NCBI RefSeq assembly: GCF_003003285.1
Contig: NZ_PVTP01000004.1
Span: forward strand, 310,001 to 374,000
Length of the DNA: 64,000 nt
Source of the DNA: Yoonia maritima
Lineage (GTDB): Bacteria > Pseudomonadota > Alphaproteobacteria > Rhodobacterales > Rhodobacteraceae
Direction of reading: 5' to 3'
The notes under the pieces are model-generated. The model did no database searches. It saw nothing but the letters and a program-made list of their open reading frames with translations, and had not been told where the DNA came from. Positions within the stretch are counted from its first letter, which is position 1. Each line of letters opens with the position of its first letter. Below are positions 2,484 through 10,587 of this stretch, one piece after another. Position numbers and translations under genes: made by a program.

Positions 2484-3101
2484 CTAGACTTGGTCGAATT
2501 TCTGGTACCCCATACCCAGAAAATTCTGTTCGGCCAACGCAGCAGCTAATTCATCTGAAATAAAGCTCCCGAGCGTGTATTTGTCGTGCCACGCATGGCA
2601 ACTGCCAATTTTGTGTGTGTCGAATATCTTTTTATCATTGCCGTCGCGGATTGGCATATAGTGTTCATCTTCGCCGACAGGCGGAATACAGGCATCCTTC
2701 GCCAACGTGTCAAGGCGATTGCAAATATAGAAAAAATATCGCTTTGCGATCACTTTGCCCCGCTGCTCTATGTCAACAGGAAGAAATTGATGCACATCAG
2801 GTTCGAAGCGTTCTACGATTTGTTTAAACTTCTCTGTGACAAGTAATCCCTTGCCCTGGGTCCTTGCCACCTCATAAAATGGAAACTCTTCATTACCTTT
2901 GCGTCGCAAGCGCGTAGGCATATGCGTCGTGTCGATAGGCCGACCGCTCCCACCCGTGCGAAAACTAACGCCCCATCGGCCATCTTGGCTTGGGTCGATC
3001 AATTCGACTTTATCAAAGTCACCATCAACTGGAATAAGCACCTGGGTCAGGATGCCCGCCAGTTTAGGATCAGGCGCACCTCCGGAAATATGATATACCA
3101 T
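2484..3101 (-). CDS. DUF1629/Imm-type putative immunity protein
   Basis: This 205-residue soluble protein has no signal peptide. Its layout resembles the DUF1629 family (PF07791), members of which are predicted or shown immunity proteins of polymorphic toxin systems: an N-terminal half with a short aromatic motif (RWGVSF), a middle region rich in Phe and Val, and a C-terminal ISDELAAALAEQNFLGMGYQKF, matching the family ending in which an ISD...L helix is followed by G-x-x-F. No toxin, Rhs, or secretion gene lies nearby, so it would be an orphan immunity gene. It reads opposite to the dcw genes between murD and ftsW and looks more AT-rich than its neighbours, suggesting acquisition. Family assignment is from memory of the motif pattern. 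Confidence 0.6.
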   Translation of the reverse strand: MVYHISGGAPDPKLAGILTQVLIPVDGDFDKVELIDPSQDGRWGVSFRTGGSGRPIDTTHMPTRLRRKGNEEFPFYEVARTQGKGLLVTEKFKQIVERFEPDVHQFLPVDIEQRGKVIAKRYFFYICNRLDTLAKDACIPPVGEDEHYMPIRDGNDKKIFDTHKIGSCHAWHDKYTLGSFISDELAAALAEQNFLGMGYQKFDQV

Positions 3102-3134
3102 TTCTAAACTCCGTCTTCTTTTTTCTAGACTGAT

Positions 3135-4322
3135 TTACCCATTCGCGGTTGACTTGATCTCTTGCCCTGCCGCCCAGCCGGATGACCACGCCCATTGAAA
3201 ATTGTACCCGCCAAGCCAGCCTGTGACGTCGACTGCTTCGCCGATGAAATACAGGCCGGGGACGGATTTTGCGCCCATCGTTTTTGACGACAGCGCGTCG
3301 GTGTCGATCCCGCCGAGTGTGACTTCGGCGGTGCGGTAGCCTTCGGTGCCGGATGGCGTCAGTTCCCAGTGTGACAGTTGATCTGCGATTTCTTGTAGTC
3401 GTGCGTCGCTTTGGTCGGCGATGTTTCCTGCTAGCTGTAGGTCGCCCGAAAGGACTTCGACCAAACGCGCTGGCAGGTATTGGGACATGACGGTGGTCAG
3501 GGCTTTGCGGCCTTGGGTTTGGCGCGCGGATTTTAATGTGTTGAAGAGGCCCGCTGCGGGATCGACGTTGACGGTGATTTGCTCGCCCTCGTGCCAATAT
3601 GACGAGGCTTGTAGTACGGCGGGGCCCGACAGGCCGCGGTGCGTGAACAGGATTGCTTCGTCAAAGCTCGTGTTATTTGCGCTGACACGAGCGGGCAGGG
3701 CGACCCCTGCGAGCGGTTTGAAGCGATCTTCGCCAAAGGTGAAGGGAACCAGCCCGGGTCGTGTCTCAATAACTGGCACATCAAACTGTCCAGCGATTTG
3801 ATAAGCAAGGCCCGTTGCGCCCATTTTGGGAATGGATTTACCGCCAGAGGCAACGACAAGATTCTTCGCGAGAATCTGCGTGATGCGACCGTCGCGCGTT
3901 AGCTGTGCATGAAAATGGGTGCCATCGTGGCCAATGTTGTCGACAGATGTTTGCAGCCAAAGCTGTGCACCTGATTTATCCATCTCTGCACGCAGCATTG
4001 CGACAATGTCTTTAGCAGTTTCATCGCAGAACAGTTGCCCGAGCGTCTTTTCGTGCCATGCGATCCGATACTGATCGACCAGCGCGATGAAGTCCCATTG
4101 CGTATAGCGTTTGAGTGCAGATTTGCAAAAGTGTTTGTTCTGGCTAATGAAATTGGCCGGGCTTGCGTGCATGTTGGTGAAATTGCAGCGTCCGCCACCC
4201 GAGATCCGGATCTTCTCGCCTGCTGCTTTGGCGTGATCCACGACAAGCGTATTTGGCCCGGCATGCGCCGCACACATCATGCCAGCAGCGCCGGCGCCAA
4301 TGATCAAAGTATCAATATTCAT
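3135..4322 (-). CDS. HI0933/BaiN-family FAD-dependent flavoprotein
   Basis: The protein begins with an FAD-binding Rossmann motif (DTLIIGAGAAGMMCAAHAG), then shows the family signature EKIRISGGGRCNFTN near residues 51-65, a second nucleotide motif (VVASGGKSIPKMGATG), and a C-terminal GLYFIGEAVDVTGWLGGYNFQWAWSSG that closes the FAD site. This matches the HI0933/BaiN/YhiN group of NAD(P)/FAD-dependent oxidoreductases, whose physiological substrate is generally unknown. The ATG at 4322 is preferred to an upstream in-frame start at 4367 because the FAD motif then falls at the usual distance; the Shine-Dalgarno is weak. A 24-bp perfect palindrome lies about 40 bp upstream. The gene interrupts the dcw cluster on the opposite strand. 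Confidence 0.9.
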   Translation of the reverse strand: MNIDTLIIGAGAAGMMCAAHAGPNTLVVDHAKAAGEKIRISGGGRCNFTNMHASPANFISQNKHFCKSALKRYTQWDFIALVDQYRIAWHEKTLGQLFCDETAKDIVAMLRAEMDKSGAQLWLQTSVDNIGHDGTHFHAQLTRDGRITQILAKNLVVASGGKSIPKMGATGLAYQIAGQFDVPVIETRPGLVPFTFGEDRFKPLAGVALPARVSANNTSFDEAILFTHRGLSGPAVLQASSYWHEGEQITVNVDPAAGLFNTLKSARQTQGRKALTTVMSQYLPARLVEVLSGDLQLAGNIADQSDARLQEIADQLSHWELTPSGTEGYRTAEVTLGGIDTDALSSKTMGAKSVPGLYFIGEAVDVTGWLGGYNFQWAWSSGWAAGQEIKSTANG

Positions 4323-8418: not shown

Positions 8419-8475
8419 GGCAGTTGATCTCTAAATTTGACGATTGCTAGTTTGACTGGCTATGAAAGGAACTGG

Positions 8476-9414
8476 ATGGTCGATTTCCCTGACGTGCGCG
8501 GCACATTAACGAAACAACGTTCGATGGCGGAATTGACCTGGATGCGCGTTGGTGGCCCGGCTGATATGTTGTTTCAGCCCGCCGATGTAGATGATCTGCG
8601 GGACTTTTTAGCAGCATTGCCTGCCGATGTGCCGGTTTTCCCGATGGGAGTGGGAAGTAATCTTATTGTGCGGGATGGCGGTATTGGCGGCGTGGTTGTC
8701 CGGCTAGGACGCGGGTTTAACGCCATTGATCCTTTGGGTGAATATGTTGTCGCTGGGGCCGCTGCCTTGGACGCGCATGTAGCGCGTAAATCTGCGGATG
8801 CCGGGCGTGACCTTACGTTTCTGCGGACTATTCCGGGAACGATTGGCGGCGCTGTTTGCATGAACGCTGGGTGTTATGGGGATTACGTTGCCGATGTTCT
8901 CGTGTCGGTTACGGTGGTTACACGAGCCGGAGAATTGGTTGAAATTGCGGCGAATGAGCTGCAATTCGCCTATCGCCAAAGTAGGCTTCCTAAAGGTGCG
9001 ATTGTTGTCAGCGCTTGTTTTGATGCGCCGCAGGCTGATCCTGCCGCACTGGTCCAGCGCATGACGGATCAACTGGCAAAACGAGATGAAACGCAACCGA
9101 CCAAAGACCGCACAGCGGGGTCAACATTTCGTAATCCTGCTGGTTTCTCGTCTACGGGACGTGCCGATGATGTGCATGATTTAAAGGCGTGGAAGGTTAT
9201 TGATAATGCTGGAATGCGTGGCGCTACCCTTGGTGGGGCTGTGATGAATGAGAAACACTCGAACTTTTTGACCAATGCGGGCGGGGCCACTGCGGCCGAT
9301 CTAGAAGATTTGGGAGAACTGGTGCGGAAAAAGGTTTACGATTCGCAAGGTATTACGCTAGAATGGGAAATTATGCGGGTTGGCGAACGGTTGGTCGACA
9401 GCGACGCAGAATAA
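8476..9414 (+). CDS. murB: UDP-N-acetylenolpyruvoylglucosamine reductase (type I)
   Basis: MurB reduces UDP-GlcNAc-enolpyruvate to UDP-MurNAc with NADPH and bound FAD. The 312-residue protein shows the FAD-binding segments [16 protein letters not shown] and [18 protein letters not shown], the substrate motif AGSTFRNP containing the general-acid serine, and the late glutamate in LEWEIMRVG. The ATG at 8476 has an AAAGGA Shine-Dalgarno five bases upstream; a start at 8437 would add 13 atypical residues. Next in the cluster should be ddl, but only a short remnant-like ORF follows. Confidence 0.96.
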
Positions 9415-9493
9415 TAGGCCAAATAATGGCTTGATCCGCAAATGGATCACATAATTGACGGGTCGCAAAGATCCGCAAAAGAGGCGGTTGGGT

Positions 9494-9703
9494 ATGTCGA
9501 GCAGGGCAAACCCGGAAGTTGTTAAAGTTTTGGATCGGCCGATGGCAGCGCGGGCAGGCGCATCATCGTTTGTTATGGATTCTAGAGCAGCTTTACGGGG
9601 CAAAACATGTGAAGTGATTGTGACCGATATTGGTCAGGCGAATGCATCGGCGGAATCGTCATCGGGTGTTTGGGTGCTGGAGGCTGCGCTATGCGAAGTC
9701 TGA
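9494..9703 (+). pseudogene. Probable ddl (D-Ala-D-Ala ligase) remnant, N-terminal part only
   Basis: This 69-codon ORF sits exactly where ddl normally lies, between murB and ftsQ, and overlaps the ftsQ start by 13 bases. Its protein aligns without gaps to my recollection of alphaproteobacterial Ddl N-termini (a P-K-V-A-V-L-M-G-G-P-S-A-E-R-E-V-S pattern, then an A-A-L-R helix and a Y-E-V-x-x-x-D-x-G strand): here MSSRANPEVVKVLDRPMAAR, then SRAALRG, then CEVIVTDIGQ. About a third of positions agree, but the glycine-rich GGPSAERE loop is destroyed and the ATP-grasp body (over 200 residues) is absent. A GAGG at 9481-9484 could still drive translation. It might instead be an unrelated small gene; the remnant reading is inference. 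Confidence 0.45.
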
Positions 9704-10587
9704 TTCGGCGTCCCGCTGCGACTGGTCCGCATGATCCGGCACCTTCGCGTTTAGGCTATCGATATCAACGGTTGCTGTTAACACCAGGTTTTCGGGCGGC
9801 GACGCGTATTGGCGTTCCTATTCTTTTAATCGCGGCGATCGCGGGATCACATTTTTCGAAAGCGGAAAACCGTGCCGCTTTGGTCGCGCAGATCGAAAAT
9901 ACCAAGCAACGTTTTCAAGAGCGCCCGCAGTTCATGGTTAAGGCTATGACTATTACAGGTGCTGATCAGTCGACGATGACCGCTGTGATTGCGCTCTTGC
10001 CGACTGACTATCCTGTTTCTTCTTTCGATCTGGATCTTGAACACACGCGCCGCACCATCGAAGCGCTTGATCCGGTGAAAAGCGCAAGCGTACGTGTCGG
10101 CGCAGCTGGCACGCTTGAGGTGCGGTTAACACCGCGCGTGCCTTCGGCGCTTTGGCGTGATGGTGCGACGTTGCGGTTGATCGATGAAACAGGGGTTGTG
10201 TCAGGGGTGGTGACGTCCCGGTCTGAGCGGCTTGACCTGCCTTTGATCGCTGGAGACGGCGCAGAACAGCACATCGAAGAGGCGCTGGCGCTTTATGCTG
10301 GGGCGGGGCCGTTAAGCACCCGTGTGCGTGGTCTTGTTCGTATGGGCGAGCGCCGCTGGGATATCGTGCTGGACCGCGATCAACGCATTTTGTTGCCAGG
10401 TGAAGGCGCCGTTGCTGCGCTGGACCGTGTGATTGCGTTGAATGCAGCCCAAGACATGTTGGAGCGTGACGTGGCCGTTGTGGATATGCGCAATGCAAAC
10501 CGTCCGACTTTGCGAATGAACGAAGAAGCGGTCGCCGCGTTGCGCCGCGTAACTGAAACAGTTTCTACAAACGGGGCGAACAACTGA
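9691..10587 (+). CDS. ftsQ: Cell division protein FtsQ
   Basis: FtsQ is a bitopic inner-membrane divisome protein linking early cytoplasmic and late periplasmic division proteins. The 298-residue protein has a basic cytoplasmic N-terminus (about 35 residues), one transmembrane helix around 37-58, a POTRA-like domain beginning FMVKAMTITGAD, and a FtsQ/DivIB beta-domain with the typical VRVGAAGTLEVRLTPRVPSALWR segment. The ATG at 9691 follows a GGAGG Shine-Dalgarno (9679-9683); a TTG upstream is less likely. Its TGA stop overlaps the ftsA ATG by one base. Confidence 0.93.
   Translation: MRSLIRRPAATGPHDPAPSRLGYRYQRLLLTPGFRAATRIGVPILLIAAIAGSHFSKAENRAALVAQIENTKQRFQERPQFMVKAMTITGADQSTMTAVIALLPTDYPVSSFDLDLEHTRRTIEALDPVKSASVRVGAAGTLEVRLTPRVPSALWRDGATLRLIDETGVVSGVVTSRSERLDLPLIAGDGAEQHIEEALALYAGAGPLSTRVRGLVRMGERRWDIVLDRDQRILLPGEGAVAALDRVIALNAAQDMLERDVAVVDMRNANRPTLRMNEEAVAALRRVTETVSTNGANN

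Follow-up and report, generated by a model that had tools for sequence, protein, structure and literature searches.

The window, by which we mean the whole stretch of 64,000 nucleotides analysed (G000 contig C4:310001-374000, from a genome of 3.68 Mb), contains a division cluster in which murD, ftsW, murG, murC, a DUF2484 gene, murB, an ORF of only 69 codons, ftsQ, ftsA, ftsZ and lpxC follow one another, the gene names having been assigned from motifs and gene order. The short ORF (Table 1) matches no Pfam or NCBIfam model. A functional Ddl would have complete N- and C-terminal domains and the nucleotide-binding loop, and with its 69 codons the ORF does not meet this definition; a ddl pseudogene would show DNA homology to the ddl of relatives at the same site, and this it does. 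Upstream of murD we also noticed an integrase-like frame (L283 9078-10052), an identity that is our own reading.

Table 1. Features around the murB-ftsQ junction (positions in the window) and in the Ddl2 neighbourhood (positions in locus L098)
Feature	Position	Strand	Remark
murB	8437..9414	+	
Leader, murB stop to remnant	9415..9493	+	Inverted repeats GATCC..GGATC and GGGTC..GATCC
Near-invariant element at the ddl start	9490..9513	+	GGGT-ATG-TCGAGCAGGGCAAACCC
ddl remnant ORF, 69 codons	9494..9703	+	Start ATG 9494, stop TGA 9701-9703, GAGG upstream at 9481-9484; present as 65-69 codon ORF in 7 genus genomes
Stretch homologous to Ddl N-terminus	9494..9628	+	Codons 1-45; nucleotide-binding loop lost
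Stretch homologous to Ddl C-terminus	9668..9703	+	Last 12 codons including stop
GGAGG, likely ftsQ ribosome-binding site	9679..9683	+	Within remnant; GAGG kept in 7/7 clade remnants
Overlap of remnant stop and ftsQ start	9691..9703	+	13 nt
ftsQ	9691..10587	+	ATG at 9691
MurF2, MurF-like ligase	L098 437-2017	-	Contig C15
Ddl2	L098 about 2885-4048	+	Contig C15
M15-type peptidase beside Ddl2	L098 4034-4534		PF08291 match

Comparison of the short ORF with native ddl

Native ddl could be read in 46 of the 49 other genomes of the genus (G006 was not included, and G016 and G035 are cut by contig ends), where it begins MSSR(A/T)NPKVVVLMGGPSAERE with small variants. The seven remnants of the clade were compared with these 46 genes at the DNA level, with in-frame sliding over the native genes providing the controls. 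Nucleotides 1-24 of the remnants are 94% identical to native ddl; nucleotides 25-144 align without gaps at 43-53% identity, compared with sliding control maxima of 39-42%, and each remnant lies above its own control maximum, the identity falling to 0.29 past nucleotide ~135 in the G011 remnant. The last 36 nucleotides are again 56-66% identical (control means 0.26-0.28, maxima 0.50-0.58), the ends comparing as W-V-L-E-A-A-L-C-E-V-stop against W-M-V-E-D-A-S-C-D-R-stop. Between the matching ends (the first ~45 and last ~12 codons) ~250 of the ~308 ddl codons are missing, and ~10 intervening remnant codons have no assignment. Because the C-terminal end of Ddl is also kept, the gene has lost its middle in frame.

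The sequence-only reading had proposed that the ddl of this cluster is reduced to a decayed remnant, and had called for a DNA-level alignment with the ddl of relatives; that alignment, with detectable similarity above the sliding controls at the murB-ftsQ site, bears the proposal out, and the comparison with native ddl confirms the loss of the GGPSAERE loop. Its description of the surviving part was incomplete: the N-terminal Ddl pattern does remain, but the C-terminal end is kept as well as the start. The remnant shares with the native DdlB-type ddl of the dcw cluster its place between murB and ftsQ, its start region and its 13-nt overlap with ftsQ, and unlike it lacks most of the codons and the binding loop, so that it cannot be an enzyme. 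From these alignments we regard the assignment of the 9494-9703 ORF as a true ddl remnant as near certain. An assembly or sequencing error as its source is excluded, since the ORF is common to seven genomes, one of them near-identical.

FtsQ was found in 55 of the 56 genus genomes. The remnant is present in seven of the 56, namely G000, Yoonia maritima YPC211 (G004), Loktanella sp. S4079 (G011), Loktanella sp. D2R18 (G015), Yoonia sp. I 8.24 (G024), a MAG (G039) and Yoonia tamlensis DSM 26879 (G052); native Ddl is present in the other 49. In the seven, murE-murF-mraY lies far from murD-ftsZ or on another contig (G000 contigs C3 and C4; G052:C7). All 56 genomes have a PF01820 match over the cut-off. 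The remnant genomes have one such match each, at 92-96 bits, and it lies in a divergent protein, Ddl2, which the same seven genomes carry and none of the other 49 does. No native-type Ddl was found by the PF01820 search in the seven remnant genomes, which excludes a relocated native ddl. The other PF07478 matches in the query's own genome are frames of 456-1160 aa, taken as other ATP-grasp enzymes without further inspection. Elsewhere in the genus, a second native-type Ddl occurs in G032 outside the cluster (C2:836602-836844).

Ddl2 and its neighbour MurF2

Ddl2 has 387 aa, and its counterparts in the six relatives show 92-98% identity to the query; in the other 49 genomes it finds only short matches of 37-44% (best E 4.9e-13), besides weaker matches in other large proteins. 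The contig C15 protein scores over the gathering cut-offs of both Pfam Ddl domains (PF01820 90.6 bits, PF07478 106.5 bits), and its AlphaFold2 model (pLDDT 84.0; residues 244-282 form a disordered insert) has the Ddl fold, with 3i12 as the best Foldseek match (E 4.6e-27). The two domains and the fold are shared with Ddl A-type, VanG and other D-Ala-D-X ligases; unlike the known D-Ala-D-X ligases, Ddl2 misses the NCBIfam TIGR01205 cut-off (215.2 vs 245.65 bits). The loop after NxxPG, which has a role in binding the second D-Ala (Ser281-Leu282 in E. coli DdlB), has 4 residues fewer than its counterpart in three aligned S. aureus Ddl chains. A short loop after PG(S/G) leading into L(W/F) is seen in 27/27 Ddl2 pattern types (30 sequences, alignment A1) and in 20/22 loci of the class sample described below; native genus Ddl has PGMTPTSLxPE.

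In the Ddl2 tree the clade groups together (100/99), with other roseobacters as the nearest group. The expectation of the earlier reading that a functional ddl must exist elsewhere in the genome, to be sought and placed in a tree, is thus borne out with a correction: a Ddl does exist, not as a moved copy but as the divergent Ddl2 beside a second MurF. We infer that Ddl2 was probably acquired horizontally, and consider it very likely that it displaced Ddl, its enzyme activity being inferred.

The gene order on G000 contig C15 is MurF-like ligase (MurF2), alpha/beta hydrolase, Ddl2, M15-type peptidase, and then oxyR-like and katG-like genes, the identities of these last two being our reading; the peptidase is possibly a DD-peptidase. 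MurF2 is over the cut-offs of PF08245 and PF02875 (Mur ligase middle and C-terminal domains) and below that of TIGR01143 (196.2 vs 288.6 bits), aligning only to model positions 65-402. MurF structures match its middle and C-terminal parts (Foldseek best 4qf5 MurF, E 5.7e-19); unlike in MurF, the first ~167 residues form helices with hydrophobic stretches and replace Mur domain 1. The AlphaFold2 model (pLDDT 88.9) has residues 1-167 almost all in helix, and hydropathy places 2-5 hydrophobic segments ahead of the P-loop of the MurF2 proteins examined, from which we infer a probable membrane location of MurF2 via its helical N-terminus. MurT, the Mur ligase of the lipid II-amidating MurT-GatD complex, likewise lacks the UDP-binding domain 1, and its chains 7q8e and 6gs2 are weak matches to MurF2 in the profile search; of the two, MurF2 is nearer to MurF. 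Action of MurF2 on a lipid-linked substrate is no more than a conjecture.

The module is under strong constraint in the clade, with pooled pN/pS of 0.076 for Ddl2, 0.111 for MurF2 (P-loop onward) and 0.133 for the neighbouring hydrolase. The seven modules sit 2.6-5.2 kb from contig ends, a position that repeated sequences like rRNA operons could account for. A plasmid location of Ddl2 is not supported, in view of the Yoonia tamlensis MurF2-Ddl2 module (L104 117-1968, G052:C5), which adjoins 16S rRNA and two tRNA genes.

The native MurF of the remnant clade

The native murF frames are open in all seven remnant genomes, at 468-490 codons. Their TIGR01143 scores are 145.7-295.5 bits, compared with 313-366 in the other 49 genomes (G037 partial). 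In an alignment with nine reference MurFs, GSVGKTS(T/V)K of the P-loop is replaced by GSVGKASTI in G000, G004, G011 and G052 and by GSAGKTATV in the remaining three; the IEIG Glu, conserved in all nine references, is Lys in 7/7; SYNNHWGVP is altered in 7/7; and the HL..F...EK stretch is also lost in three. We take the altered residues to belong to the catalytic motifs of Mur ligases, and on these alignments the native MurF of the seven genomes looks dead. Pooled pN/pS for native murF in the clade is 0.351; the reference murF, from nine other genes of the genus, gives 0.284, not far under this value and at a wider divergence, and the comparison is uninformative alone. Displacement of MurF by MurF2 is likely, the enzyme activity again being an inference. 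The full-length native MurF between murE and mraY may possibly be a pseudoenzyme or a second coupling frame.

Ddl2 and MurF2 beyond the genus

We found 52 loci of Ddl2 relatives, including those of Pacificibacter, Pelagimonas, Lentibacter, Antarcticimicrobium and Rhabdonatronobacter, of Croceicoccus, Henriciella, Hyphomonas and Granulosicoccaceae, and of Clostridia at 32-35%. Canonical MurF over the cut-off was found in 0/29 further proteobacterial Ddl2 genomes, whose completeness is not given. PF01820 has matches in 28 of these 29, and each one over the cut-off is Ddl2 (42-67% identical); the Antarcticimicrobium match below the cut-off is the native remnant, 56% identical to native Ddl. Judging from their coordinates, MurF2 and Ddl2 lie on the same contig in 25/29. 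Between murE and mraY only murF ghosts of 76-271 nt are left in ten of the 14 regions read from these genomes, some with recognisable MurF ends; the gap is 429 nt in Henriciella, Croceicoccus has a degenerate MurF-like frame, and G084 and G064 were unreadable. Taken together with the dead-looking MurF of the remnant clade, the absence of canonical MurF over the cut-off in the 29 Ddl2 genomes suggests that the imported pair replaced both enzymes.

Among genomes of the family drawn from the order, 387/390 have MurF over the cut-off, the exceptions being G052, G015 and G334 (best E 5.1e-59, equal to the value of G059 and probably that genome). This count misses decayed cases, as G000 passes the cut-off despite its lost motifs. 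In a class sample, 23/385 Alphaproteobacteria, G000 included, have MurF2. Three of the other 22 carriers (G565, G831 and G647) have MurF over the cut-off, and the MurF motifs of G565 and G647 look intact. Ddl is present in 21/22 carriers, 21/22 Ddl loci are nearer Ddl2 than native Ddl with one undecided, and MurF2 and Ddl2 lie on one contig within a few kb in 15/22. In Clostridia MAGs (L160, L162-L164, L166, L168, L169, L177) a MurF with a hydrophobic N-terminus stands directly upstream of a Ddl2-like Ddl (32-35% identity); its presence there indicates that the pair is old and wide. No clear ddl ghost was seen among 12 loci outside roseobacters. In two alphaproteobacterial MAGs (L259 in G082, L261 in G080) Ddl2 itself occupies the former ddl site immediately before ftsQ. 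No paper on a replacement of the MurF/Ddl pair was found in our searches of the PMC literature, subscription papers being outside their scope.

Frames running from the old ddl start into ftsQ

FtsQ was sought in 25/29 Ddl2 genomes (four Granulosicoccaceae excluded) and found in 24; ten of 11 roseobacter loci were usable (G056-G060, G066, G067, G076, G077, G081), G084 being cut by its contig. In all 17 roseobacter Ddl2 genomes, these ten and the seven of the clade, a frame stays open from the former ddl start as far as a stop that overlaps an ftsQ start codon, as would be required of a coupled leader ORF. The stubs are 47-106 codons long, and the overlap is 13 nt in 12 and 4 nt in five. Of the two remaining forward frames in these stretches, one is open in 2/17 and the other in 1/17; the reverse frames are open in 8, 7 and 5. 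For G056, G057, G066, G067 and G081 one of several candidate ftsQ starts was selected. The 4-nt overlap seen in five genomes hinges on which ftsQ start codon is taken, and in G059 the start is a GTG two codons upstream. Since G066, G067, G076 and G081 have 71-75% GC, with other frames also open in G066, G067 and G081, these loci and those with ambiguous ftsQ starts carry less weight. For the clade itself, with 121 inferred changes placed at random, all seven frames stay open in 1.25% of 4000 simulations. The 13-nt overlap is also present in 46/46 native ddl of the genus and in 16/16 of other genera of the family (19 of 20 regions obtained, 16 of them giving ddl, with the start placed in seven).

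That the frames are open in 17/17 despite separate decay favours translational coupling to ftsQ. Translational coupling through overlapping ORFs, and leader ORFs, are of a generally known kind, and the stub resembles them in being short, in having its own ribosome-binding site, and in a stop that overlaps the next start with the next ribosome-binding site inside; it differs from known coupled leader ORFs in deriving from an essential enzyme gene, and in that its coupling is inferred. The suggestion made from the sequence alone, that the remnant may be kept for coupling of ftsQ translation, therefore finds support by comparison only. Coupling is the reason for stub retention that we favour, as a putative function without expression data. 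Work on Rhodobacter sphaeroides regards ddlA-ftsQ-ftsA as a single operon targeted by NtrX, which binds upstream of ddlA (PMC7240162).

Constraint at the ddl start and other explanations

The first 20 nt of the ORF are identical in the seven clade remnants. Synonymous heterozygosity at codons 2-8 of native ddl is 0.008, against 0.39-0.52 elsewhere in the gene (46 genomes); the start element is retained with few changes in 9/10 other roseobacter remnants, and its TCGAGCAGG core in 5/7 placeable ddl starts of other genera. The upstream leader differs by 3-24% between clade subgroups, against 48-68% at fourfold sites of the flanking genes. In R. sphaeroides, NtrX and CenR are reported to bind upstream of ddlA, and ddlA-ftsA is treated as a transcription unit (PMC7240162, PMC9275681), so the start element may lie close to where the ftsQ transcript begins. 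The main rival, or perhaps partner, of coupling is accordingly a cis-element acting at the nucleotide level (promoter, leader or initiation) over the ddl start of a ddl-ftsQ-ftsA transcript, the open frame being incidental. The near-invariant 24 nt without synonymous variation in native ddl, their presence in remnants whose coding part is unrecognisable, the conserved leader and the R. sphaeroides data all speak for it. It leaves unexplained, however, why frames of 47-106 codons stay open and end on the ftsQ start, and why the 3' end is kept; the NtrX pattern GCA-N9-TGC was not found near the remnant start, and Rfam gave no match for the leader and start region. As the whole explanation it seems to us rather doubtful.

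We find it less probable still that the ORF has become a new small protein gene under purifying selection, which would have counted against the remnant as first described. Such selection is partly seen, and the remnant does not drift freely: pairwise dN/dS is 0.20-0.54 among the seven genomes and the first ~24 nt are near-invariant, motifs such as CEVIVTD and SSGVW are kept in many, and the sole indel in the clade alignment is of 12 nt. Yet the pooled pN/pS of the remnant, 0.478, is about three times that of ftsQ (0.156) and murB (0.166), and the other roseobacter remnants share little past the first codons; no family match was obtained. A plain functionless pseudogene on its way out would fit the deletion and the loss of the nucleotide-binding loop, but hardly survives the constraint on the 5' end, the frames open in every roseobacter case after separate decay, and the stop simulation.

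Discussion

We propose, with fair though not full confidence, that the short ORF is the ghost of ddl, displaced by an imported Ddl2/MurF2 pair and persisting through its coupling to ftsQ. An ancestor of the Yoonia/Loktanella clade would have acquired the mobile Ddl2 and MurF2 pair, a horizontal origin that we infer, and the pair would have taken over making and attaching the terminal dipeptide, whereby native ddl and murF would become dispensable. Native ddl might then have lost its middle in frame, and native murF its catalytic motifs, remaining full length. Ribosomes would initiate at the former ddl start, read through the stub and terminate 13 nt into ftsQ, beside the ftsQ ribosome-binding site, so that stub translation might support FtsQ synthesis; on this proposal the ghost owes its survival to being the first frame before ftsQ. 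Homology at both ends of the stub, its sharing by seven genomes, the association with Ddl2 and MurF2, the loss or inactivation of the native pair and the open frames overlapping ftsQ are what we observe; the enzyme activities, the membrane location and the coupling are inferred.

A bolder extension, which we hold only tentatively and think unlikely as it stands, is that a mobile MurF2-Ddl2 module scattered over Proteobacteria alters the way in which the terminal dipeptide is added to the peptidoglycan stem, and possibly its identity, with MurF2 at the membrane, perhaps acting on lipid-linked tripeptide, and with Ddl2, whose substrate loop is shortened, maybe making something other than D-Ala-D-Ala. 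On this view the division cluster retains frame-open ghosts of both genes, ddl and, in the remnant clade, the dead full-length murF, solely for carrying ribosomes to ftsQ and mraY. The occurrence of intact MurF alongside only Ddl2 in the class sample speaks for a product usable by canonical MurF, and so against the boldest chemistry.

Nearly all bacteria require Ddl and MurF, and both enzymes are antibiotic targets. Under the displacement and coupling model that we favour, the Yoonia/Loktanella remnant clade seems to be an intermediate in enzyme replacement; standing between the old and the new pair, it offers a natural experiment, and it suggests that two consecutive core steps of cell-wall synthesis may be displaced together. 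The alternative MurF raises the question of the cellular site of the last precursor step. The stub, for its part, allows two roles of ddl within the division cluster to be told apart, that of an enzyme and that of a frame ahead of ftsQ, and with its 69 codons makes the idea that dcw gene order is kept by translation coupling directly testable.
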